From contig NZ_CP091716.1 of assembly GCF_022009635.1 (NCBI RefSeq), positions 6,159,501 through 6,223,500 on the forward strand: a stretch of DNA of 64,000 bases, in the 5' to 3' direction. This stretch comes from Variovorax paradoxus. GTDB taxonomy: Bacteria; Pseudomonadota; Gammaproteobacteria; Burkholderiales; Burkholderiaceae_C. The notes below the pieces were generated by a model. The model worked only from the letters and a program-made list of their open reading frames with translations, made no database searches and was not told where the DNA came from. Below are positions 1,098 to 29,484 of this stretch, in pieces (positions within the stretch are counted from its first letter, which is position 1; each line of letters begins with the position of its first letter). A program made the position numbers and the translations under genes.

Positions 1098-1166
1098 TAC
1101 GTAACGCGTAACGGGTTTGTACCCGTAACGTAACCCTTTCGCGCGTTCCCGGCGCCGTAACGTCAC
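1098..1166. promoter_or_regulatory. GTAACG-cluster element, probable upstream activating sequence of the pilus operon
   Basis: CGTAACG occurs at 1100-1106, 1107-1113, 1124-1130 and 1156-1162. CCGTAACGTAAC (1123-1134) and CCGTAACGTCAC (1155-1166) are 32 bp apart, about three helical turns. The inner part, ACGGGT-TTGT-ACCCGT (1111-1126), is a perfect 6-bp palindrome. The block 1108-1130 aligns with 28940-28961, upstream of the giant adhesin, with only one gap and two substitutions. It lies ~105-175 bp upstream of the -24 element, the usual place for enhancer-binding-protein sites. Binding by the neighbouring bEBP is inference. Confidence 0.6.
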
Positions 1167-1272: not shown

Positions 1273-1289
1273 TGGCCGCTATCCTGCTT
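1273..1289 (+). promoter_or_regulatory. Candidate sigma-54 (-24/-12) promoter for flp
   Basis: TGGCCGC-TATC-CTGCTT contains the invariant GG (1274-1275) and GC (1286-1287) separated by exactly 10 bases. It matches the consensus TGGCACG-N4-TTGCW at 8 of 12 positions. The predicted transcript start is about 1299, leaving a ~113-nt leader before flp. It is weaker than the matching adhesin promoter at 28784-28799. Confidence 0.5.
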
Positions 1290-1411
1290 ACACCTTTTGG
1301 CTAGCACAGCTAAGCGCGAGTCTTGCGGGTTTCTCTTGTTGATACACGGAGTTACTCTGTATAACATCCACCTCACCAGCCTTTGTTAACACTTACTGAA
1401 AGGGGTAAATC

Positions 1412-1597
1412 ATGCTTGGTCAAATTACTCGTTTTTTAAAGGACGAGGAAGGCGCGACCGCAATTGAGTACGGAATTATTGCGGGGTTGGTTGCGGTCGC
1501 GATTGTTACGTCACTCTCTGGCACCGATGGCCTCGGCCCCAAGCTTTCCGGCCTCTTCACCTATATCGCCGGCAAAGTGACTGCCCCCGCCTCTTAA
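1412..1597 (+). CDS. flp: Flp/Fap major pilin, copy 1
   Basis: This 61-residue type IVb pilin carries the prepilin motif DEEG|ATAIEYG: cleavage after Gly with Glu at +5 and Tyr at +6, as in all Flp pilins. A hydrophobic helix (GIIAGLVAVAIVTSL) follows, then a short C-terminal tail ending KVTAPAS. It would be cleaved by the prepilin peptidase encoded 260 bp downstream and assembled by the Tad machine. It is 52/61 identical to the second copy, but its codons are clearly more AT-rich (TTTTTTAAAGG, ATTATTGCG), suggesting an older or separately acquired copy or selection on the mRNA start. The AGGGG ribosome site and ATG fix the start. Confidence 0.95.
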   Translation: MLGQITRFLKDEEGATAIEYGIIAGLVAVAIVTSLSGTDGLGPKLSGLFTYIAGKVTAPAS

Positions 1598-1658
1598 CAG
1601 AGCGCTATCGCATCAAGCTCCCTGTCAGTTCTCCAAATCCATCTGAAAAGGCTTCATC

Positions 1659-1844
1659 ATGCTTAACTCAATTGCCCGTTTTCTGCGCGACGAAGAAGGC
1701 GCCACCGCCATCGAGTACGGAATCATTGCTGGCCTCGTCGCCGTTGCCATCGTGGCGTCCCTTAACGGTACCAACGGTCTTGGCACCAAGCTCGCGGGTC
1801 TGTTCACGTACATCGCCGGCAAGGTAACGGCGCCGGCGTCCTGA
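1659..1844 (+). CDS. flp: Flp/Fap major pilin, copy 2
   Basis: A second 61-residue pilin has the same processing motif (DEEG|ATAIEYG) and an identical C-terminal FTYIAGKVTAPAS. Substitutions are confined to positions such as 3, 4, 6, 10, 33, 36, 39, 43 and 46. It lies 61 bp after copy 1, preceded by GAAAAGG. The two pilins could co-assemble or be expressed in different amounts. The codon usage is typical of the chromosome, unlike copy 1. Confidence 0.95.
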   Translation: MLNSIARFLRDEEGATAIEYGIIAGLVAVAIVASLNGTNGLGTKLAGLFTYIAGKVTAPAS

Positions 1845-13950: not shown

Positions 13951-15375
13951 ATGAGCTCTCCCGCCAATTTCGACGAACTCGACCTCTTTGTCTGGGAGGG
14001 CAAAGCCGACATCCTCGATCGCATCGCGCGTTGCATGGCGAGCTTCGACGTGGAGGTGATCCGGGCCGATGGCCTGCCGCCGCCTGCGCCCGAGCGCGGC
14101 GTTGCCATGCGGCCTTCCGTCGCCATCATCAGCGTCACCGTCATCGACGGCGGCGGGCTCGCGCATGCGACCGAACTGCTGCAGGGCATGCCGGTGATCT
14201 GGGTCGCGGCGGGCTCGCGCGAGCGCGACTCGCGCACTTATCCGCCCGAGTACCTGCACGTGCTGCCCTACGACTTCACCTGCGCCGAGTTGCGCACGAT
14301 GGTCGCGAAGCTGGTGCGGCAGTTGCGTGCGCGCGAGGTGGCGCCGCAGGCGCCCGACGTGCTGGTGGCGCACTCCGACGCGATGAAGTCGCTGCTGGCC
14401 GAGGTGGGCGCTTTTGCCGACTGCGACCACAGCGTGCTGGTGCGCGGCGAAACCGGCGTGGGCAAGGAGCGCATCGCGCAGCAGTTGCACCTGGGGCACC
14501 AGCACTACAGCAAGGGCGCGTTCGTGGCGGTGAACTGCGGCGCGATTCCCGACGGGCTGTTCGAGTCGCTGTTCTTCGGCCATACCAAGGGCTCGTTCAC
14601 CGGTGCCGTGCATGCGCACCGCGGCTATTTCGAGCAGGCCACGGGCGGCACGCTGTTCCTCGACGAAATCGGCGACCTGCCACGCTACCAGCAGGTGAAG
14701 CTGCTGCGCGTGCTCGAAGACAACGCGGTGACGCGGCTCGGGGCGACGGCACCGATCCGCGTCGACTTCCGCCTGGTGGCTGCGACCAACCGCAACCTGC
14801 GCGAGATGGTGGCGAGCGGGGAGTTTCGCGCCGATCTTTTCTATCGGCTCGCGGTGATCGAGCTGCATGTGCCCAGCCTCGAGGAGCGCGGCGAAGTCGA
14901 CAAGATCGCGATCTTCAAGGCCCTGTTGAGCAATGTGCTCGGCGACGAGCTGGAGGCGCTCGGCGAGACGCCGCACTGGCTCAGCGATGCCGTGGCCGAG
15001 ACCTACTTTCCGGGCAATGTGCGCCAGTTGCGCAACCTCGCGGAGCGCGTGGGCGTGATCGCGCGGCAGTTGCACAGCTGGGACCAGAACCTGATCCAGC
15101 GCGCGATCGCGCTGACGCGCGGCACGCCTGCACCGGCCATTTCCGCGGACCGCAACGGCGCGGGTGGTGGCGGCGGAATCGGGCTCGACGGCGGCAGCGA
15201 CCGCAAGGGCTGGAACAGCGGCGAGCGCAACCGCATCATCGCGGCGCTCGAGGTCAACGACTGGAAGCGCCAGGACACCGCGCAGCACCTGGGCATCAGC
15301 CGCAAGGTGCTGTGGGAAAAGATGCGCAAGTACCAGATCCTCGACGGCGAACCCGGCATCCCCGAAGACGCCTGA
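13951..15375 (+). CDS. Sigma-54 enhancer-binding protein with pseudo-receiver domain
   Basis: A 474-residue bEBP. The N-terminal ~125 residues look like a receiver fold ([20 protein letters not shown]) but no clear phospho-acceptor Asp pocket is seen. The AAA+ domain has Walker A GETGVGKE (~167-174), GSFTGA (~215-220, the sigma-54 contact loop), Walker B ([13 protein letters not shown]) and sensor/arginine-finger segments (FRADLFYRL). A Gly-rich linker leads to a Fis-type HTH ([19 protein letters not shown]). No sensor kinase is nearby, so FleQ- or VpsR-like control by a small ligand such as c-di-GMP is plausible but unproven. It sits between the two operons that have sigma-54 promoters. Confidence 0.92.
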
Positions 15376-15401: not shown

Positions 15402-16985
15402 TCAGGGCGTCGAGAGACGAGGCGCCTTGCGCAGCGGCGGGTTCGCGCTAGCGGGGCCCGCGGCGCGCTCGACCACCGGCTCGCTCGCGCACGCGGTGTT
15501 GCTCGAGATGCAGAGCGCGGCCAGCAGGCCGTCTTCGGTCAACGCGGGCCGGCTCGGCGAACCGAAGAGCCTGTCGATCCAGTTGTTGGGGCCCACCGGG
15601 TCGATGCGCAGTTCGCCGGTGGTGCGCGCCAGGCGCAGTTCCGTGATGCGCAGGTCGAACACGCCGTCCACATAGTCGAACAGCAGCGTGTAGTAGTCGA
15701 GTTGCGCGTCGAGCACCTTGGGCAGGGTCTCGCGGCCGAACTCCATGAGGCGGCGGCGGCCGCGGAAGGCCTGGCCCGACGTGCTCACGGCCTCCATCAG
15801 CTGACGTTCGCGTTCACGGCCCGACACGGTGCGGGCCCACGACGCGGAGGTGAGTTCGAACAGGTTGAGCTTCACGCCCTCGAGCTTGGCTTCCTGGTTC
15901 GCGACTTCGGCCAGCGCGGACTTCAGCCGCAGTTGCCGGTCGAAGCCGTTGCCGAAGTTCCAGTTGAGTTCGAAGCCCGCGCGCGTCGGGTTCTGCGTCA
16001 CGTCATTGGGGTCGCGGGTCTTGACGATGACGGCGTCCACGGTCGGGTACAGGCTCGCGTCCTGCTGGTCCGCCAGCGCCCTGGCACGTTCGATGCGGCC
16101 CTGGGCTTCGGCGATCTCGGTGCTGCGCGCCTCGGCGCGGCGCAGCGCTTCTTCCTGCGAGCCGATACGCCATTGCGGCGGCGCGGCGAGCACGGGCAGC
16201 GACTCGGCGTTGGGCGAGAACTTGAAGTAGTTGCGGAACTTGGCCATCGCCTCGTCGCGCTGCGCCTCGAAGTCGGACTCGCGCGCGGCCACGAGCGCGC
16301 GGCGCGACGCGGCCATATTGAGGTCGTTGTCGCCGGTCACGCCCAGCGCGACGCGGCGGGCCTCGGCCTTGGAGAGCTCGGCGACCACCTCGGTGGCCTT
16401 GTGCGCGATCTGCTTCTTGAGGTCGTAGCGCTGCACCTGCAGGTAGGCGGTCAGCGCGTCGAGCACCACTTTCTGCGAGGTGGTGACGACGGCCTCGTCG
16501 TCGGCCTGGTTGCCGGCTTCGGCGGCGCGCTGCGCGGCGCTCATGGCGCCGCCGTCCAGCAGGCTCATGCGGGCCTGGGCGGTGAGCACGGTGTAGCTCT
16601 GCGTCCTGGCGCCCGCCGCGCCGCTGTTGTAGTTGCCGGTGGTCGTGCCGAAGTTGAAGCGCGGGTAGCGCGCCTGCTTGGCGGCATCGACGCCGTAGCT
16701 GCTGGTGTTGGCCGCCGCCTGCGCAGTCTGCACCTCGGGGTAGTCCTGCGACAGCGCGATCAGCGCCTGCTTCACCTGCTGCGCGTAACTGGCCGCGCCG
16801 AGCGACGGCGCGGACAGGCGGCGCGCGAGCATGAGCACCGGCGGCGGCTCCAGCTGCGATTCCTGTTGTTGCTGCTGCTGTTCCTGCGCGAAGGCGGCGG
16901 GCGGCAGCGCGAAGCTGGCGCACAGCGCCGCGCACACGGCACCGGTGCCCGCGCGGCGCCGGCTGTTCAAGGGTGCGCTCCTCAT
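15402..16985 (-). CDS. TolC-family outer-membrane channel of the type I secretion system
   Basis: 527 residues. A signal peptide ends near AFAQ, followed by a poly-Gln tract (EQQQQQQES) and two outer-membrane efflux-protein repeats rich in coiled-coil (VAELSKAEARRVALGVTGDN; TRAGFELNWNFGNGFDRQ). It would form the outer-membrane duct for the secreted giant protein. Its ATG overlaps the stop of the HlyD gene (ATGA), so the two are coupled. The C-terminal ~50 residues beyond the barrel/helix core are Pro/Ala-rich. Confidence 0.92.
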   Translation of the reverse strand: MRSAPLNSRRRAGTGAVCAALCASFALPPAAFAQEQQQQQQESQLEPPPVLMLARRLSAPSLGAASYAQQVKQALIALSQDYPEVQTAQAAANTSSYGVDAAKQARYPRFNFGTTTGNYNSGAAGARTQSYTVLTAQARMSLLDGGAMSAAQRAAEAGNQADDEAVVTTSQKVVLDALTAYLQVQRYDLKKQIAHKATEVVAELSKAEARRVALGVTGDNDLNMAASRRALVAARESDFEAQRDEAMAKFRNYFKFSPNAESLPVLAAPPQWRIGSQEEALRRAEARSTEIAEAQGRIERARALADQQDASLYPTVDAVIVKTRDPNDVTQNPTRAGFELNWNFGNGFDRQLRLKSALAEVANQEAKLEGVKLNLFELTSASWARTVSGRERERQLMEAVSTSGQAFRGRRRLMEFGRETLPKVLDAQLDYYTLLFDYVDGVFDLRITELRLARTTGELRIDPVGPNNWIDRLFGSPSRPALTEDGLLAALCISSNTACASEPVVERAAGPASANPPLRKAPRLSTP

Positions 16986-18298
16986 GGCTCGCGGAAGGCT
17001 TCGCGCCGCAGCTTGAGCACCGGCCGCAGGATGTACCAGATGAACGGATCGGTGCCGACACGCAGGTCGACCTCCGACTCCATGCCGGCGGTGATGCGGT
17101 TCTCGTCGCGCCCCACGTGCGACTGCGACATGCTGATGAGCAGCCGGTAGTAGGGCGCGCCGTTCGAGATGGCGGGGTCGCGGTCGGCGTCTGCCGCCAC
17201 CAGCTTGACCTTGCCGTCGACGGCGCCGTAGCGCAGGTAGTCGTAGGCGGTGATCTTCACGCGCGCGGTCTGCCCCACTTCGATGAAGCCGCGGTCGTTC
17301 GGGTTGAGCCGCGCCTCGACCATGATCTCGTCTTCGTCGGGCACCACTTCGAGAATCGATTCGCCGGGCTTCACCACCCAGCCGGGGCTGGAGTTGCGCA
17401 GGCCCTTGACGATGCCGTCGGAAGGCGCCTTCACCACCGTGCGCGAGCGTTGCGTGCGGGCACGCGCGAGGTCTTCGCTCAGGCTCGCGAACTGGCGCTC
17501 GACGGTGGCCAGTTCGTCCGATGCGCGGCGGCGGTATCGCCCTTCGGCCTCGGCCATCTTGGCCTGCGCCTCGGTGATGGCGGCGTCTGCCGAGACCACG
17601 CCCTGCCGCGCCACCGCAAGCTCGCTGCGCACGCTCTCGGCCTGGCGCCGCTTCTCGAGCACCTCGACCTGGCCCACCAGCTTCTCGCTGAGCAGCTGCT
17701 CGGAAATCTCGAGTTCCTTCTGCATCAGTTCGAGCCGGTCGCCGAGGCCCTTCACCTTGGCCTGCTGCTCCAGCTTCTTGCTGCGCGCCTGCTCCAGGCC
17801 CGACACCGCGCCCGCCATGACGCCGCGCTGCTCCAGCGCGCGCGCCTGGTAGGCGCCGGTCTCGCCCTCGAACACGCCTTCGTCGATGTCCTTGGCGAAG
17901 GACTCGCGGCGAAGCGGCTGGCCCCGGCTCTCGGCCATGAGGCGCACGCGCGTGGCCTGCGTGGCGGCATAGCGAGCCGTGAGTTCTTCCAGGTTCAGGC
18001 CGCTGCCGCCGAGGTCGATCTCCACCAGCGGCTGGCCGGTCTTGACCTTGTCGCCTTCCTTGACCAGCACGCTGCTGACGATGCCGCCTTCCAAGTGCTG
18101 GATGGACTTGACGCGGTCCGACGGGATCACGCGGCCCGGCGCGACGACCACGGTTTCCATGGGAAAGCCCAGGCCGACCAGTGCCAGCACCGCGACCGCC
18201 CCGCCGATGATCCATTGCCGCCGTCGTCCCTGCGGCGATGTCTGCGCCGCGCGCTTGTCCTGTTCGTCCTGCAGTATCTGCGGCAGATCTGATTTCAA
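16982..18298 (-). CDS. HlyD-family periplasmic adaptor of the type I secretion system
   Basis: 438 residues: short cytoplasmic N-terminus, one TM helix (IIGGAVAVLALVGLGF), a biotinyl-lipoyl-like motif (GGIVSSVLVKEGDKVKTGQPL), a long coiled-coil (~120-290) and a C-terminal beta-barrel (FIEVGQTARVKITAYDYLRYG). The family is that of PrtE/LapC adaptors. It bridges the ABC exporter and TolC. Confidence 0.94.
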   Translation of the reverse strand: MKSDLPQILQDEQDKRAAQTSPQGRRRQWIIGGAVAVLALVGLGFPMETVVVAPGRVIPSDRVKSIQHLEGGIVSSVLVKEGDKVKTGQPLVEIDLGGSGLNLEELTARYAATQATRVRLMAESRGQPLRRESFAKDIDEGVFEGETGAYQARALEQRGVMAGAVSGLEQARSKKLEQQAKVKGLGDRLELMQKELEISEQLLSEKLVGQVEVLEKRRQAESVRSELAVARQGVVSADAAITEAQAKMAEAEGRYRRRASDELATVERQFASLSEDLARARTQRSRTVVKAPSDGIVKGLRNSSPGWVVKPGESILEVVPDEDEIMVEARLNPNDRGFIEVGQTARVKITAYDYLRYGAVDGKVKLVAADADRDPAISNGAPYYRLLISMSQSHVGRDENRITAGMESEVDLRVGTDPFIWYILRPVLKLRREAFREP

Positions 18299-18326: not shown

Positions 18327-20144
18327 TCACGCCATGGAGCGGGTGGCCGCGGCCCCCGCGCTGTCTTCGCTGTCGCCCACCGCCACCAGCGGCTTCTTCA
18401 CGCCGAACAGCTTGGGCACCATCACCGCCGCGGAGCCCTGTTCGACGTTGCCCTGCCCGGTCACGTGATAGACCACGGTGGCCGCCGAGACGATGCGCAG
18501 CGAATGCGTGACCACCACCACGGTGCGCACCTTGGCCACCGCCAGCATGGTGGCGAGCAGGTTGCGCTCGCTCTGGAAGTCGAGGTCGTTGCTGGGCTCG
18601 TCGAGCACCAGCACCGAGGGCTTGCGCAGGAAGCTCATGGCCAGCGCGAGCTTGCGTCGCTCGCCCACGGAGAAGCCGGTGCCGCCCTCGCCCACCACGG
18701 TGCGGTAGCCGTCGGGCAGGCGCGAGATGAAGTCGTGCGCGCCCGAGAGCTTGCAGGCCGCGACGATCTGCTCGTCGCTCTGGCCCGGCGCGCCGCGGCG
18801 CATCACGTCGACCAGCGCGCCGCCGAACCAGTAGACCTCTTGCGACAGATAGCTGATCCAGCGCGACAGCTCTTCGCGGCCGAACTGCGAGAGGTCGTAT
18901 TCGCCGATGTTCACCGTGCCGCGCGTGGGCGTGTACAGGCCCGACACCAGCTTCACCAGCGTCGACTTGCCCGCGCCGTTGCGCCCGACGATCACGTGCA
19001 GGCCGCCGGGACCGATGTCGAGGTCGACGTTTTCCAGCACCGGCTGCTGTGCGTTCTGCGTGAAGCTGAAGCTCACGTCGCGCAGCGTGACGCGGCCCAG
19101 CGGCTGCGGCAGCTCCATGCCCGTGGGCGGCTTCTCGACCGGCTCGCGCAGCACGGTCTCGAGCCGCTTGGCGGCTTCCTTCGCGGTGGCCAGCGAGCGC
19201 CAGTTCGACACCAGCCCGGCCACCGGCTGCAGCGCCTTCAGGGCCAGCATGTTGGAAGCGACAAGGCCGCCCACCGTCATCCATTGCTCCATGACCGACA
19301 CCGCGCCCACGGTGACGACGATGACGGAGAACACGGTGAGCAGCACGGTGGTGCCGTCGCGCGCGGTCTCGATCTGGCCGTTCTTGCTGAAGCTCTCGGT
19401 GAGCCACGCGTTGTAGGTCTGGCGCCACATCTCGATGGTGGGACCGTCGTTGGCCTGCGTCTTGAGCGTCTCGCGCGCATGGCAGATCTCCGAGGTGACG
19501 CGGTCCAGCCCGCGGCCGCGCTGCACTTCTTCCACGCGGCCGGTGCGCACTTCGTCGGCCCACCACCACGCCAGGAAAGACATGATGGCCAGGAACACGG
19601 CCACCACCGGCAGCACCGGCAGCGCGACGATGCCGATCACGATCAGCGCGAAGATGGCCATCGGCAGGTCGAAGATCGACTGTGCGAGCCCGCCGGTGAC
19701 GGTGCCGCGCACCGAACCCACGTCGCGGAAGTACAGCTGCCACGACGACGCGGGCCGCGACTCCAATGCGCGCAGCGGGCGCGCGAGCATCGAGTTCAGC
19801 AAGGCGCCCGACACGCCGTGGTCGATGATGGCGCCCGCGTTGCGCAGCAGGCGCGAGCGCCGCGTGCGCAGCCAGAATTCGATGCACAGGAAGAAGAAGA
19901 TGCCGCTCACCAGCGCGGCGAGCGTCGATGTGCCGCTGCGCGACAGCACGCGGTCGTACACCTGCAGCAGGAAGATCGAAGGCAGCAGCCCGAACAGGCT
20001 GATGGGGAGCGAGCGCCATGCCGCGCCCTTGACCAGCGGATAGGCCGCGCGAAACGCTTCATGCAGCGCACCCGCATAGGGGCTGGCACCAGGTTCGTCT
20101 GGCGTGTCGGCAACCAGTTGGCTGGGCAAGAGGAACTTGATCAT
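18327..20144 (-). CDS. Type I secretion ABC transporter (permease-ATPase)
   Basis: 605 residues. An N-terminal ABC transmembrane region (~40-315) is followed by a nucleotide-binding domain with Walker A GRNGAGKST (~386-394), a degenerate signature FSVGERRKLALA in place of LSGGQ, and Walker B VLVLDEPSNDLD. No C39 peptidase domain is present, so the substrate carries a C-terminal rather than a double-glycine leader signal. It is PrtD/LapB-like. The coding neighbours and the giant repeat protein upstream point to that protein as cargo. Confidence 0.92.
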   Translation of the reverse strand: MIKFLLPSQLVADTPDEPGASPYAGALHEAFRAAYPLVKGAAWRSLPISLFGLLPSIFLLQVYDRVLSRSGTSTLAALVSGIFFFLCIEFWLRTRRSRLLRNAGAIIDHGVSGALLNSMLARPLRALESRPASSWQLYFRDVGSVRGTVTGGLAQSIFDLPMAIFALIVIGIVALPVLPVVAVFLAIMSFLAWWWADEVRTGRVEEVQRGRGLDRVTSEICHARETLKTQANDGPTIEMWRQTYNAWLTESFSKNGQIETARDGTTVLLTVFSVIVVTVGAVSVMEQWMTVGGLVASNMLALKALQPVAGLVSNWRSLATAKEAAKRLETVLREPVEKPPTGMELPQPLGRVTLRDVSFSFTQNAQQPVLENVDLDIGPGGLHVIVGRNGAGKSTLVKLVSGLYTPTRGTVNIGEYDLSQFGREELSRWISYLSQEVYWFGGALVDVMRRGAPGQSDEQIVAACKLSGAHDFISRLPDGYRTVVGEGGTGFSVGERRKLALAMSFLRKPSVLVLDEPSNDLDFQSERNLLATMLAVAKVRTVVVVTHSLRIVSAATVVYHVTGQGNVEQGSAAVMVPKLFGVKKPLVAVGDSEDSAGAAATRSMA

Positions 20145-20190
20145 GGGAAAAAGCCGATCCGTCGTGCAATGACGCCTGCCTCATTATCAA

Positions 20191-20208
20191 CTGTTACCCA
20201 GCTGTTAC
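20191..20208 (-). promoter_or_regulatory. 11-bp-spaced GTAACAG direct repeat upstream of the ABC exporter
   Basis: On the minus strand GTAACAG occurs twice with an 11-bp period (plus-strand CTGTTAC at 20191-20197 and 20202-20208), 47-64 bp upstream of the ABC gene start. The core GTAAC is shared with the pilus and adhesin elements. A sigma-54-like GGCAGGCGTCATTGC follows downstream, but its GG-GC spacing is 11 rather than 10, so it is not claimed as a promoter. Confidence 0.3.
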
Positions 20209-20235
20209 AAGGCAAAAATTCACTCTGCAGGCGAC

Positions 20236-23715: not shown

Positions 23716-24219
23716 TCAGCGGTAGCTGAATTCGGCGCGGCGATTGAGCTGATAGCCCTCCTCGGTGGTTGCGAGCGACGCGGGTTTCTCCGTGCCCCAG
23801 CTGATGGCTTCGATGCGCTCGGCCGGCACGCCCAGTTGCGTGAGGGCGCGTTGCACGGCGTCGGCGCGGCGCTGGCCGAGGGCCAGGTTGTATTCGCGGC
23901 CGCCGCGCTGGTCGGTGTTGCCTTCGATGACGACCCGGCTCGACGTCCGGTTGCGCATGTAGCTCGCGTGCGCCTCGACGATCTTCACGTACTCGGACTT
24001 GATGTTGTATTTGTCGAAGTCGAAGTAGACGATCTTGGAGACGCCCTCCGGGCCGTTCTGCACCGCCGGCGGCGGGGCGGGCTCCACCTTCGGCACCGCG
24101 CTCGCGGCCTTGTTCGAGTAGTAGTAGGTCGCGTCGTCGCGGCCAGTCTTGGGAGCCGCGCAGCCAACCAGGGTTGCCCCGAGAGCGACGATGGCCAGTA
24201 TCCGGAAATTCTTTTTCAT
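23716..24219 (-). CDS. OmpA/Pal-like lipoprotein
   Basis: 167 residues, with a lipoprotein signal (lipobox LVGC), a short linker (APPPAVQNG) and a C-terminal OmpA domain with the peptidoglycan-binding pattern (VVIEGNTDQRGGREYNLALG, QRRADAVQ, LNRRAEFSYR). I choose ATG 24219 (MKKNFRI) because GAAAGGA precedes it; an in-frame TTG sits two codons upstream. It probably anchors or organises the secretion duct at the outer membrane. It is unlikely to be the housekeeping Pal, because tolB neighbours are absent. Confidence 0.9.
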   Translation of the reverse strand: MKKNFRILAIVALGATLVGCAAPKTGRDDATYYYSNKAASAVPKVEPAPPPAVQNGPEGVSKIVYFDFDKYNIKSEYVKIVEAHASYMRNRTSSRVVIEGNTDQRGGREYNLALGQRRADAVQRALTQLGVPAERIEAISWGTEKPASLATTEEGYQLNRRAEFSYR

Positions 24220-24234
24220 ATCCAATCCTTTCGC

Positions 24235-24260
24235 GGGACAGGCCGTTGGCGGCCTGTCCC
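24235..24260 (-). terminator. Strong hairpin between adhesin and OmpA-like genes
   Basis: GGGACAGGCCG (24235-24245) and CGGCCTGTCCC (24250-24260) form a perfect 11-bp stem with a TTGG loop, in the 84-bp gap after the adhesin stop. No U-tract follows on the minus strand, so it may act as an mRNA-stabilising or processing hairpin that sets adhesin apart from downstream genes rather than as a full terminator. Confidence 0.5.
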
Positions 24261-24303: not shown

Positions 24304-27300
24304 TCAGCCCAACAGGCCGTGCAGGATGTTGGTCACCGGCGACAGCGCGCTGCCAGCCGGGCTGTGCTCCACCAGGCTCGTGATCGGGGTCACGACGTCG
24401 TTCACCAGCGGCGTGGTCACGTGCTCGACGGTGTTCACCACGCTGCTGACGACATCGGTCACCGGTGCGGCCGCATGGGAGGCGCCGGCCAGGATGTCGG
24501 TCACCGGCGCCGTCGCATCGGACACCGCATGGGTGACGTTCGAGGCGACCGAGCCGACGGTATCGGTGACGCCGCTGGCGACGCTCGTCACCGGCTGCAG
24601 GATGTTGGCCACCGGGCTGCTGCCGCCCAGCAGGCCACCGAGCAGTCCGCCGACGAGACCGTCGTTGCCCAGCAGGCTGCCGACCAGGCCGTCATTGCCG
24701 AGGACGCCGCCGAGTGCGCCGCCCGTGCCGCTGCCACCGCCCAGCAGACCGCCCACAAGGCCGTCGCTGCCGAGGACGCCACCGAGCAGGCCGCCTTCGC
24801 TGCCGCCGAGCACGCCACCCAGGACGCCGTGGTCGCCCAGCACACCGCCGAGCAAGCCGCCGTCGGTGCCACCGCCGAGCAGACCGCCCACGAGGCCGTC
24901 GTTGCCGAGGACACCACCGAGCAGACCGCCTTCGCTGCCGCCGAGCACGCCGCCCAGGACGCCGTGATCACCCAGCACACCGCCGAGCAAACCACCGTCG
25001 GTACCGCCGCCGAGCAGACCGCCCACGAGGCCGTCGTTGCCGAGGACACCGCCCAGCAGGCCGCCTTCGCTGCCGCCGAGGACGCCACCCAGAACACCGT
25101 GGTCGCCCAGCACACCGCCGAGCAAACCACCGTCGGTACCGCCGCCGAGCAGACCGCCTACGAGGCCGTCGTTGCCGAGGACGCCGCCGAGCAGACCGCC
25201 TTCGCTGCCGCCGAGGACACCGCCCAGCAGGCCACCGTCGGTGCCGCCAAGCACGCCACCCAGGAGACCGTGGTCACCACCGAGCACGCCGCCAAGCAGG
25301 CCGCCGTCAGTGCCACCGCCGAGCAGACCGCCCACGAGGCCGTCGTTGCCGAGGACACCGCCCAGCAGGCCGCCTTCGCTGCCGCCGAGGACGCCACCGA
25401 GCAGACCGCCGTCGCCGCCGAGCACACCGCCCAGCAAACCGTTGTCGCCCAGCACACCGCCGAGCAGGCCACCGTCGCCGCCGAGAACACCACCCAGCAG
25501 GCCGTTGTCACCCAGCACACCGCCGAGCAGGCCACCGTCACCGCCGAGCACACCGCCCAGCAGGCCGTTGTCGCCCAGCACACCGCCGAGCAGACCACCG
25601 TCGCCGCCGAGCACACCGCCCAGCAGGCCGTTGTCGCCCAGCACACCGCCGAGCAGACCACCGTCGCCGCCGAGCACGCCGCCCAGCAGACCGTTGTCAC
25701 CCAGCACGCCGCCGAGCAGGCCACCGTCGCCGCCGAGCACACCGCCCAGCAGACCGTTGTCACCCAGCACGCCACCGAGCAGGCCACCGTCACCGCCGAG
25801 GACACCGCCCAGCAGACCGTTGTCACCCAGCACGCCGCCGAGCAGACCACCGTCACCGCCAAGGACGCCGCCCAGCAGACCGTCGTCACCCAGCACGCCA
25901 CCGAGCAGGCCGCCGTCGCCACCAAGGACGCCGCCCAGCACGCCGCCATTCAGCAGGTTCGCCACGCCATCCGTGAGGTAGTCCACCTGCGTATCGACAG
26001 CGTGCAGCACCGCGGTCGTCGTGCCGGTGCCCAGCAGTTGATCGGTCAGCGGGCTCAGCAGGCCGCCGACGCCGCCGGTCACCTGGCTCACCACGCTGTC
26101 GACCGGGTCGAGCACGTTGGGGCTGTTCGCATTGAAGGACGTACCCAGCACCGGGCCGAGCAGGCCGTCGACCGTGTCGGTCAGGCTGTCCGTGAGACCG
26201 ACCACCGGGGTGAGCACGTCGCCCAGGCCCAGGTCGCCGAGAACGCCGTGGTTCAGGCCGTTGGCCACGCTGCCCACGATGCTGTCGACCGGGTCGAGCA
26301 GCGCGGCGCCGGTGCCCGGCGTGCCGCCGTTGCCGATGCCGCCCAGCACGCCGCCGAGCACGCCACCCAGCAGGCCGTCGTTGCCCAGCAGGCCACCCAC
26401 CACACCGTCGTTGCCGAGGAGGCCGCCGACCAAGCCGTCCGGCCCGAGCAGGCCGCCGCCGAGACCACCGCTGCCGAGCACGCTGCCCAGGCCGCTGTCG
26501 CCCAGCAGGCCGCCGACGAGGCCGTCGTTGCCGAGCAGGCCGCCCACCGGGCCGTCGCTGCCCAACAGGCCGCCGACCAGGCCGTTGTCGCCAAGCACGC
26601 CGCCGAGCAGGCCGTCGTTGCCCAGCAGGCCTCCGACCACACCGTCGTTGCCGAGCACGCCACCAAGCAGGCCGTCGCCGCCCAGGAGGCCGCCCACCAC
26701 GCCGTTGTCGCCGAGCAGGCCACCCAGCAGGCCGTCGTTGCTCAGCAGGCCGCCCAGCGCGCCGTTGTCGCCCAGCAGGCCGTCGACCACGCCCTTGTCG
26801 CCGAGCAGGCCGCCGAGGGCACCGCCCAGCAGGCCGTTGTCGCCGCCGAGCAGGCCGCCCAGCGGGCTGTCGGTGATCAGGCCGCCGACCACGCCGTGCT
26901 CGCCGAGCAGGCTGTCGACCAGGCCGCCGTGACCCAACAGCTGGCCGGTGAGGCCGCCGCTGCCCAGCACGTTGGACAGCGTGCCGTCGCCGCCCAGCAG
27001 GCCGCCGACCAGGCCGTCGTCGCCGAGCAAGCCGCCGACCGCGCTGCCTTCGCCGAGCAGGCCGCCCAGCAGGCCGTGGTCACCGAGCAGGCCGCCGGTG
27101 AGGCCGCCGACGGCGCCCTTGTCACCCAGCAGGCCGCCCACGAGGCCGTCGCTGCCCAGCACTTCGCCGAGCAGGCCGCCCACGGCACCCTTGTCGCCCA
27201 GCAGGCCACCGACCAGGCCGTCCTGGCCGAGCAGGCCGCCGACCAGGCCCTTGTCGCTGAGCAGGCCGGACACGAGGCTGCCTTCACCCAGCACGTTGCC

Positions 27301-28749
27301 GAGCACGTCGCCGATGACGCCGTCCTTGCCCAGCAGCTGGTCGGTCACGCCGCCCAGGCCCAGGGCACCGGTCAGGCCGCTCACGATGCCGTGGTCGCCG
27401 ATGAGGTTCTCCAGGCCGTTGTGCAGCGCGTCGGTCAGGTAGTCGACCTGATGGTTCAGCGAGCCGAGGATCTGGTTGGTGGCGCCGGCGCCCAGCAGGC
27501 CGTCGAGCGCCGGGCTCAGCGCGCCGCCCAGCAGATGGGTGACGCTGGCCACGGTGTTGTCGACCGGGTCGAATTCGTTGGGGTTGTTGGGCGTGAAGGT
27601 GCTGCCGAGCAGCGGGGCCAGCACGTCGTCCAGGACGTCGGTCAGGCCGTCGACCGCATGGGTCACGGGCGTGAGCGCACCGCCGAGGCCGAGCGCGCCG
27701 CTCACGCCGTCGACGACATGGTTGACGAGGCCGTCGCCCGGATCGAGGAGGTGGTCGCCATCGGCGTCTGCGTCTGCATCGGCGTCCGCATCTGCGTCGG
27801 CATCTGCATCCGAGTCGGCGTCCGCATCGGCGTCAGCGTCCGAATCGGCATCCGCGTCGGCGTCCGAATCCGAGTCGGCGTCTGCGTCGGCATCCGAGTC
27901 AGCATCGGCGTCTGCATCCGAATCGGAGTCGGCGTCAGCGTCCGCGTCCGAGTCGGCATCTGCATCGGCGTCAGCGTCGGCATCTGCATCCGAGTCGGCG
28001 TCCGCATCGGCGTCCGCGTCCGAGTCGGCATCCGAATCCGCGTCGCCGTCCGCATCGGCATCCGAGTCCGCGTCGGAGTCGGCATCCGCATCGGAGTCCG
28101 GGGTGGTGGGCGTCGTCGGGGTCGTGGGCGTGGTCGGGTCGCCGGAAGAAACGAGCAGCGGAATGCCGGCCGCGCCGCCACCGCCACCACCGCCGAGCGC
28201 GGCGCCCAGTGCCGCGGCACCCAGGGCGCCCAGCGCGAATTCACCCAGGCCGATGCCGCTGCCGGCAGCGAGCTTCTTGGTCACGGCCAGCGCGGCCGCA
28301 TCGGCGTCGCTGTCGGGCGGGGTCACTTGCAGGTCGCCCGAGGCGACATCCACGTTCACTTGTTCGAGGCCGCCGGGCAGCTTGGTCGAGCCGATGGTGG
28401 CGTCGGTGCCGCCGGTGAAGACGCCGGCCAGCGGCGCCTTGTTGGTGGCGGAGCCGGGGAACATGACGTTGGCGTGGCCGTCTTGCGGCACGATCACGCG
28501 GTCACCGGCAACCAGGGTCTGATTGCCATCGACCGGAATGCGGACACCGTCGCGCATCACGGCGACGCCGGGCGTGGCATTCGATAATGTCCCGATGCTG
28601 GCCGGGCCGGCCGCGGCAGCGGGCGCCGCCGAACTCATCGCGCCGGGCGTGCCGAGCGGAGTAACGGTGGCCTGGGCAATAACAACAGGAGCTGCGCCAT
28701 CGGCGGCAAGTCCTACGGTCGAAACGGTCGATGCTTGTGGAGCGTTCAT
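24304..28749 (-). CDS. Giant repeat-built secreted surface protein, candidate adhesin (type I secretion cargo)
   Basis: 1481 residues. N-terminal region (~1-215) includes a FecR-like segment ([20 protein letters not shown]) and a Gly-rich stretch. Asp/Ser/Ala stalk (DADADSD units) spans ~216-331. Module A (~335-440) is followed by diverged GLLG repeats to ~805. Module B (~806-933) is homologous to A (DPVD, VDYLTD). Near-identical GLLGGVLG repeats run to ~1381, then a Val/Thr-rich C-terminus. No signal peptide and no canonical RTX nonapeptides are seen. The downstream ABC/HlyD/TolC set suggests type I export. AGAGG precedes ATG 28749, and a sigma-54 promoter lies just upstream. Adhesin function is inferred. 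Confidence 0.85.
24760..25390 (-). repeat. 135-bp coding repeat in the adhesin
   Basis: The sequence CCGCCTTCGCTGCCG recurs at 24791, 24926, 25061 and 25196, exactly 135 bp apart, and again at 25370. Each unit encodes 45 residues built of [32 protein letters not shown] and [13 protein letters not shown]. Near-identity at the DNA level implies recent expansion. Confidence 0.9.
25395..25940 (-). repeat. 63-bp coding repeat in the adhesin
   Basis: About eight copies with exact 63-bp period (marker GTTGTC at 25441, 25504, 25567, 25630, 25693, 25756, 25819). Each encodes 21 residues: [11 protein letters not shown] then [10 protein letters not shown]. All copies stay in frame, so changes in copy number would change length without breaking the protein. 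Confidence 0.9.
27757..28105 (-). repeat. Asp/Ser/Ala stalk repeat in the adhesin
   Basis: About 116 residues of alternating DAD and DSD units, with codons GAC/GCN/TCC in a hexanucleotide-like pattern. It is similar in style to the serine-aspartate stalk of Gram-positive MSCRAMM proteins; here it separates the N-terminal domain from module A. Strong negative charge suggests Ca2+ binding or an extended rod. Confidence 0.85.
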
Positions 28750-28783
28750 GGCAGCCTCTGTGACAAAAGATGCCTACTCAGGG

Positions 28784-28799
28784 GCAACTAGCGTGCCGC
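28784..28799 (-). promoter_or_regulatory. Sigma-54 promoter of the giant adhesin gene
   Basis: On the minus strand this reads CGGCACG-CTAG-TTGCC: GG at 28797-28796 and GC at 28785-28784, exactly 10 bases apart. GGCACG and TTGC are perfect consensus blocks. The predicted start of transcription is near 28773, about 24 nt before the ATG at 28749, with AGAGG in between. Confidence 0.7.
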
Positions 28800-28925
28800 T
28801 TTCGTCCAGCCCCGTGCCAAGCCCATCGCCGACGCCGCAACCTGTTGATTTATATGGATATTTTTCTTTTCAGCGGCCTGCCAGCCATGTGTGGAAACAG
28901 CTCGTAAGCAGGTCATTTCGCGATT

Positions 28926-28961
28926 CGTTACGTTACGGTGTAACGGTTCGTACCCGGAACG
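28926..28961. promoter_or_regulatory. GTAACG-type element upstream of the adhesin, relative of the pilus element
   Basis: CGTTACG occurs at 28926-28932 and 28931-28937 and GTAACG at 28940-28945. CGTTAC-GGT-GTAACG (28931-28945) is a perfect 6-bp inverted repeat. 28940-28961 aligns with 1108-1130 upstream of flp with one gap and two substitutions. The block lies ~130-165 bp upstream of the sigma-54 -24 box of the adhesin promoter. Confidence 0.6.
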
Positions 28962-29049: not shown

Positions 29050-29484
29050 ATGTTCAATCCCTCCCAGGAAGACGTGCGCCGCTTCTTCTGCGACGTGTAC
29101 GCCAAGCACCGGCAGGGCTTGCCGATGGAAGCGCTCGAGACCATCGCCGCCGGCTGGATCGACCAGCACCCCGAGTACCACGAAGACCTGGCCGACGCCG
29201 ACGCGGCGGTCGCGCGGGTCTACGACGGATCGAACGGGCGCGAGAACCCGTTCCTTCATCTGTCGATGCACCTGTCGATCAGCGAGCAATGCTCCATCGA
29301 CCAGCCGCGCGGCATTCGCCAGGCCGTCGAGTTGCTGGCCGCGCGCCGCGGTTCGCTGCTGCATGCGCACCACGAGGCGATGGATTGCCTTGGCCAGATG
29401 ATGTGGGAGAGCCAGCGCGCCGGCCGGCCGCCGGACGGCGAAGGCTACGTCGCCTGCGTGCAGCGCCGCGCGACGAAGGACTGA
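29050..29484 (+). CDS. DUF1841-type conserved protein
   Basis: 144 residues starting MFNPSQEDVRRFFCDVY. The core has conserved-looking LHLSMHLSISEQ and LAARRGSLLHAHHEAMDCLGQMMWESQR, which I recognise as the DUF1841 family common in beta-proteobacteria. All helical by eye; cytoplasmic. Function unknown. It abuts pcaQ tail to tail with no gap. It starts 89 bp after the adhesin's upstream element, so it could be affected by the same regulator. Confidence 0.85.
   Translation: MFNPSQEDVRRFFCDVYAKHRQGLPMEALETIAAGWIDQHPEYHEDLADADAAVARVYDGSNGRENPFLHLSMHLSISEQCSIDQPRGIRQAVELLAARRGSLLHAHHEAMDCLGQMMWESQRAGRPPDGEGYVACVQRRATKD

Follow-up and report, generated by a model that had tools for sequence, protein, structure and literature searches.

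The window, by which we mean the whole 64,000-nucleotide stretch of DNA from the soil bacterium Variovorax paradoxus analysed here (contig NZ_CP091716.1), carries from left to right the flp pilin genes, a Tad locus that extends to ~13.9 kb, a plus-strand gene for a sigma54-type activator, and a set of secretion and adhesin genes on the minus strand (Table 1). The activator gene separates the Tad locus from the secretion genes, and its product is a candidate regulator of the promoters at both ends of this arrangement.

Table 1. Genes and promoter features of the locus, numbered from the first nucleotide of the window.
Feature	Position	Strand	Remarks
Upstream element before flp, five CGTAAC copies	1100..1161	+	
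Degenerate -24/-12-like TGGCCGCTATCCTGCT before flp	1273..1288	+	29/31 loci
Sigma70-like TTGATA-N17-TAACAT before flp	1339..1367	+	29/31 loci
Two flp pilin genes, head of Tad locus (1412..1844)	1412-1597 and 1659-1844	+	
Sigma54-type activator, AAA+ with GSFTGA, Fis-type HTH	13951..15375	+	candidate regulator of both promoters
TolC-like outer membrane protein	15402..16985	-	PF02321 on longer open frame; start set by hand
HlyD-type adaptor	16982..18298	-	TIGR01843, above cut-off
Type 1 secretion ABC transporter	18327..20144	-	TIGR03375, TIGR01842, TIGR01846, all below cut-off
Sigma70-like block with two GTAAC copies, 5' of ABC-transporter gene	20183..20210	-	conserved; promoter assigned by eye
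MurF-like fusion protein, 1031 aa	20514..23609	-	N-terminal part without Pfam hit, then MurF-like ligase
Lipoprotein, OmpA-like C-terminal part	23716..24219	-	assigned by eye from translation
Hairpin GGGACAGGCCG-CCAA-CGGCCTGTCCC, 3' of adhesin gene	24235..24260	-	29 sequences aligned
Adhesin candidate, 1481-aa repeat protein (SDADA and LGG-type repeats)	24304..28749	-	
Sigma54-type -24/-12, GGCACG-CTAG-TTGC	28784..28797	-	predicted +1 near 28773
IHF-like site AATCAACAGGTTG, between upstream element and promoter	28838..28850	-	matched to IHF consensus
Upstream element GTTCCGG...CGTTAC-N2-CGTAACGTAACGA, three GTWAC half-sites	28920..28961	-	candidate activator site

The repeat protein, which the first-pass annotation had called a giant adhesin, is large and not giant at its length of 1481 aa. 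No Pfam family was found in it and comparison of its N-terminus with the PDB gave no match; we regard it as a candidate type 1 secretion substrate because of its neighbouring genes and its repeats. Among the 26 other Variovorax loci with a located gene start, identity over its N-terminal 160-171 aa is 79-93% in 25 and 59% in the remaining one (G001). The MurF-like fusion gene was present in the adhesin cluster of all 30 Variovorax loci examined, and an orthologue at ≥81% identity occurs in 48 of 101 genomes of the genus (own genome included). Relatives of its N-terminal part (~50-55% identity) are found elsewhere in the genomes, many of them within open frames of ~1600 codons.

The adhesin gene had also been described as standing at the head of a secretion operon. 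A probable promoter does precede it, but it may or may not head an operon, given two features further downstream. Between the adhesin and lipoprotein genes lies an 11-bp hairpin that has no T-tract and whose stem is largely conserved, possibly an mRNA stabiliser or attenuator, and 5' of the ABC-transporter gene there is a conserved sigma70-like block. Taken together, the hairpin and this block suggest that the secretion genes may be partly or wholly on a separate transcript. In three other Variovorax genomes (G030, G031 and G034) at least three GTAAC copies stand ahead of the ABC-transporter gene; these are three of the five GTWAC clusters that the comparison below places away from flp and the adhesin.

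For comparison within the genus we searched 61 genomes (own included), of which 32 carry an orthologue of the activator at ≥76% identity. Variovorax supplies the closest named orthologues (31 of 80 retained loci, with identities of 92-96% in 28 and of 75-76% in 3). The set of 31 loci used for alignment consists of the window, 29 of the 31 other carriers (all except the fragmented assemblies G010 and G022) and one locus from another family, G067, so that 30 are Variovorax. Genes for HlyD, the ABC transporter and the fusion protein lie downstream of the activator in all 30 Variovorax loci and were not found at the G067 locus, where the activator is 62% identical. The adhesin start was found in 27 loci; in three others (G007, G018 and G060) the contig ended first.

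Sigma54 promoters have GG at -24 and GC at -12 with ten nucleotides between, and transcription starts ~12 nt past the GC. The near-consensus box GGCACG-N4-TTGC reported earlier is indeed present on the minus strand, ending 35 nt ahead of the adhesin ATG with AGAGG in between, and the same genome encodes rpoN (416.6 bits, over the cut-off). A box this good had been judged unlikely by chance. For the motif alone this judgement does not hold, as the 7.95-Mb genome contains 38 exact copies of GGCACG-N4-TTGC compared with 25 for the reversed-pattern control, a result that rules out rarity alone as proof of a sigma54 promoter. Since the motif is not rare by itself, its weight comes from conservation: the GG and GC, the N10 between them and the near-consensus flanks are found in all 27 Variovorax adhesin promoters, GGCACG-N4-TTGC being invariant and its spacing exact. 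One diverged genome, G106, has a second exact GGCACG-N4-TTGC with a ATTCAATCACTTG stretch nearby (L256:1075), ~4 kb upstream of its adhesin promoter.

At sigma54 promoters the activator site typically lies ~80-200 bp upstream, and an intervening IHF site is common, though not obligatory. Both features have candidates here. The GTWAC-rich element lies ~125-165 bp upstream of the -24/-12 box, a distance that fits an activator site, and an IHF-like sequence, WATCARNNNNTTR, absent from the earlier reading, is found at about -101 from the adhesin ATG in 25 of 27 Variovorax promoters. Averaged by column, the frequency of the majority base is 0.96 in the -24/-12 box, 0.88 in the element and 0.80 in the IHF-like block, compared with 0.58-0.65 in the spacers; the 5' untranslated stretch of the adhesin gene is highly conserved as well, at 0.93. 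The -24/-12 box, the element and the IHF-like site all recur in two additional, diverged Variovorax genomes (G106 and G110). At flp, an IHF match was found in 1 of 31 loci, that of G001.

The first-pass annotation had proposed that a block upstream of the adhesin matches one upstream of flp, and this was borne out by a search of the whole genome. The 10-mer GTAACGTAAC has exactly two copies in 7.95 Mb, one before flp (window position 1125, plus strand) and one before the adhesin (28927, minus strand), in the same orientation relative to the two genes, with 5 matches for the reversed-pattern control. A second pattern, CGTNACG-N{1,4}-GTAACG, is likewise found at these two places only (control, 9). 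The inverted repeat CGTTAC-GGT-GTAACG named in the same annotation is present on the plus strand at ~28931-28945, ~135-160 bp upstream of the box, but CGTTAC-N3-GTAACG occurs in only 4 of the 27 species. The conserved unit is instead GTWACGTAACG, which overlaps the inverted repeat and is present in all 27 Variovorax promoters; CGTWACGTAACG and GTTCCGG are each found in 26 and the perfect palindrome CGTTACGTAACG in 22.

With a 42-column weight matrix built from the adhesin elements (window genome, G000, left out), the adhesin element scored best and flp second in the window, at a weak -16.3 bits, and among eight shuffled windows one reached -1.1 bits and the other seven ≤-18.6. A 21-column matrix did not place flp among the six best matches in the window, and shuffles scored up to 8.7. 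Clustering of half-sites was adopted after the weight matrices, and its settings were thus chosen after other attempts; so defined, the window contains three clusters of at least three GTWAC within 45 bp, of which flp has two and the adhesin one in its upstream region, where 200 Markov sequences give a mean of 0.005 per 64 kb. Across the 31 loci (1.14 Mb) there are 61 such clusters, 29 before flp, 27 before the adhesin and 5 elsewhere. The 5-mer clusters (three within 45 bp) occur before flp in 28 of 31 loci and before the adhesin in 27 of 27, and 6-mer clusters (three within 60 bp) in 27 of 31 and 3 of 27, respectively. No cluster was found before flp at three of the activator loci (G043, G001 and G067).

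The adhesin element follows the activator through the genus. Its strict form, CGTTACNNCGTNACGTAACG, was found in 46 of 101 genomes, exactly once in each (reversed control, 0), and in 42 of the 46 it shares the strand of the MurF-like fusion gene and precedes that gene by 2.7-6.2 kb; in three of the other four (G105, G018 and G139) the two are on different contigs, and G114 yielded no fusion gene. Within the 61 genomes searched for the activator, the strict element is present in 27 of the 32 that have an orthologue, compared with 0 of the 29 that do not. The five activator-bearing genomes in which it was missed are G001, which has the element in a variant form, G007 and G060, where the adhesin contig stops short of the promoter and a search elsewhere did not find the strict element, and the fragmented assemblies G010 and G022.

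A similar adhesin promoter layout was found outside Variovorax, in Xenophilus (L221, L222 and L224; 3 of 3), Pseudacidovorax (L233; 1 of 1) and Hydrogenophaga (L164; 1 of 1). In these five promoters TTGC is kept, the first half of the box reads GGCACG, GGCATG or GGCACA, and there are GTWAC half-sites 100-170 bp further upstream. The GTWACGTWAC unit is not intact in Xenophilus L224, the Hydrogenophaga pair of element and box is further from the first ATG, and a strict IHF match was found in none of the five. GTWAC clusters also precede flp in Pseudacidovorax (2 of 2) and Hydrogenophaga (1 of 1); the two Xenophilus flp upstream regions read contained none. A second CGTTACGTAACG occurs ~1.4 kb past the adhesin element in Hydrogenophaga (G146, C19:46957).

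More distant relatives of the activator (63-65% identity) were found at 39 loci in Paraburkholderia, Burkholderia and Trinickia, with a Tad gene matched upstream in 35. The fetched flanks of these loci gave no match to the type 1 secretion, fusion or adhesin genes, the downstream flank being shorter than 6 kb in 5 of the 39. A related element, GTAACGTAACG-N6-16-GTTAC, is nevertheless present in 34 of the 38 genomes searched (the 39 minus L173), giving 35 matches compared with 3 for the reversed control; it occurs once per genome except in one genome with two, and its spacer is N13 in 34 of 35. A pilin gene lies 3' of this element in 18 of 20 stretches read (20 taken of the 35 matches in 34 genomes), an earlier flp search having found flp in 2 of 4 such genomes.

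The activator itself has the domains of an NtrC-type protein, namely a sigma54 interaction domain (PF00158, E 3.4e-62) and a Fis-type HTH (PF02954, E 5.3e-12), and a Pfam scan at E 0.001 detected no receiver domain of the kind expected of a PprB-type response regulator. GSFTGA stands in place of the classical GAFTGA in all 15 aligned orthologues and in the PDB entry 7vbs, and the HTH end is almost invariant over the 15 orthologues, which come from six named genera. Entries 7vbs and 7vbw ('Sigma-54 dependent trancsriptional regulator') represent a full-length orthologue (E 1.9e-189, residues 4-471), for which we found no paper among the open-access articles searched. The next best PDB match is FleQ (8p53 and 8pb9), with the AAA+ core in common. 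The LFRS stretch before Walker A is the c-di-GMP motif of FleQ; it is not conserved in the alignment of the activator, which sets the protein apart from the FleQ family.

From these features we propose that the region from 28784 to 28961 is very probably a complete enhancer-type sigma54 promoter, through which the linked activator would drive the adhesin gene and tie it to flp. The NtrC-type activator would bind the GTWAC-rich element, IHF would bend the DNA at the site between element and box, and the AAA+ ring would open sigma54-RNA polymerase held at the -24/-12 box, with transcription from near 28773. Binding of the same activator to the related flp element would place the Tad pilus and a secreted adhesin under one signal. 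The earlier suggestion of a sigma54-type promoter with a flp-like element is thus supported by the invariance of the box in 27 of 27 promoters, by three other genera, and by the co-occurrence of element and activator (27 of 32 versus 0 of 29). Several results count against the proposal: the weak weight-matrix scores at flp, the flp regions without a GTWAC cluster in Xenophilus and in G043, G001 and G067, the modest excess of the -24/-12 motif over its control, and the GSFTGA loop of the activator. We consider the conserved enhancer-type sigma54 promoter to be genuine, to judge from the sequence comparisons, and the linked activator most likely reads its element.

The flp end of the system is less uniform. 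FleQ and VpsR are known to activate or repress at sigma70 promoters, and one possibility, to which we give well under even chances, is that a single element serves two promoter classes, sigma54 at the adhesin and sigma70 at flp, where the activator would activate or repress, so that pilus and adhesin may be opposed. The core patterns at flp were written after the alignments had been seen and sigma70 is called by consensus only; read in this way, 29 of 31 loci have a TTGATA-N17-TAACAT-like block near -73 and 29 of 31 only a degenerate -24/-12 (TGGC[CA]-type, then C/GTGC) near -139, while Paraburkholderia-type flp regions keep the element with a TTGCT[TC]-N17-TATAA-type core in 17 of 18 and a -24/-12 at ≥6/8 in 1 of 18. 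Because the flp core is so often degenerate or sigma70-like, promoters that share the element need not be of one class, and a single activator may serve both classes. Against this, the degenerate -24/-12 of the other Variovorax is itself conserved and may work, and in G001 and G106 the flp region has a canonical CGGCACG-N4-TTGCA at -178 instead and no TTGATA block (also absent in G067), a pattern in keeping with plain sigma54 control in those two genomes. A conserved ttcaTggga stretch and a CAGAGGGAAAAAT block also lie at 1170-1214, downstream of the flp element and ahead of the core promoter.

Published work on V. paradoxus EPS bears on the same question. According to the available part of that study, the tad locus goes down in static biofilm, and swarming requires it (PMC7494200). 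A simple joint biofilm switch is therefore not supported, and the reduction fits staged or opposite control, as two promoter classes would allow. A fuller evolutionary version, which we hold slightly more tentatively still, is that the Tad-linked AAA+ activator reads an old GTWAC element, from Paraburkholderia to Variovorax, at a sigma54 adhesin promoter and a sigma70 pilin promoter, and that the pilin promoters of G001 and G106 switched to canonical sigma54 with the upstream half-sites kept.

A different regulator might instead bind the GTWAC element, with the sigma54 box served by an unrelated activator. Binding of the linked activator to the element is a prediction, and the genome contains at least 10 matches to this activator, itself included (16 of 36 candidates scored). 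We nevertheless consider this explanation improbable, as the element follows the activator orthologue across Variovorax and a related element persists where the activator is present but the adhesin operon was not found in the fetched flanks. It is very unlikely that the -24/-12 box is incidental and that the conserved blocks are part of an RNA feature or of the divergent DUF1841 gene, which starts near 29051 on the plus strand: the element does lie between two divergent genes and the 5' untranslated stretch is conserved too, but the element recurs before flp, ~28 kb away, the spacing of the box is exact in all 27 promoters, and G001 has the variant element and the box with no DUF1841 match in the fetched stretch.

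Regulation of the kind we propose for the linked activator is already known from two systems, described here from the available parts of the papers. In Pseudomonas aeruginosa, PprA-PprB uses one regulator for Flp pili and for BapA, a large adhesin, along with the type 1 system that secretes it, and PprB binds the bap promoter region in a gel shift (PMC3510237). PprB is a two-component response regulator, and the available text of PMC3510237 does not contain the word 'sigma'; the candidate here is an NtrC-type AAA+ protein, and its proposed target combines a -24/-12 promoter with an upstream element at a distance. In Burkholderia cenocepacia, BerB resembles our candidate in being an AAA+ activator that has a DNA-binding domain but lacks any recognised sensor domain; with RpoN it drives the -24/-12 promoter of a biofilm regulator, and RpoN control of bapA is also mentioned (PMC5552954). 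BerB differs in having GAFTGA, in binding c-di-GMP and in the position of its gene close to the bep exopolysaccharide genes, whereas the protein considered here has GSFTGA and is encoded at a Tad locus. In Pectobacterium, a test of the sigma54 activator VasH did not confirm the flp/tad genes as targets (PMC3767616). Among the matches listed in the open-access literature there was no paper on this element or on control of Tad and adhesin by this activator, and as far as literature searches go the target pair, the element and the link to the activator are undescribed.

The proposal names a specific DNA target for an activator with a structurally solved orthologue, and it connects Tad pili to a type 1 secreted adhesin of plant-associated bacteria in a simple way that can be tested. 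If the reading with two promoter classes is true, a single protein would control pilus and adhesin in opposite directions or in stages, and if the difference in flp promoter class holds, these genomes would offer a natural experiment in which one enhancer-binding protein acts at sigma54 and at sigma70 promoters.
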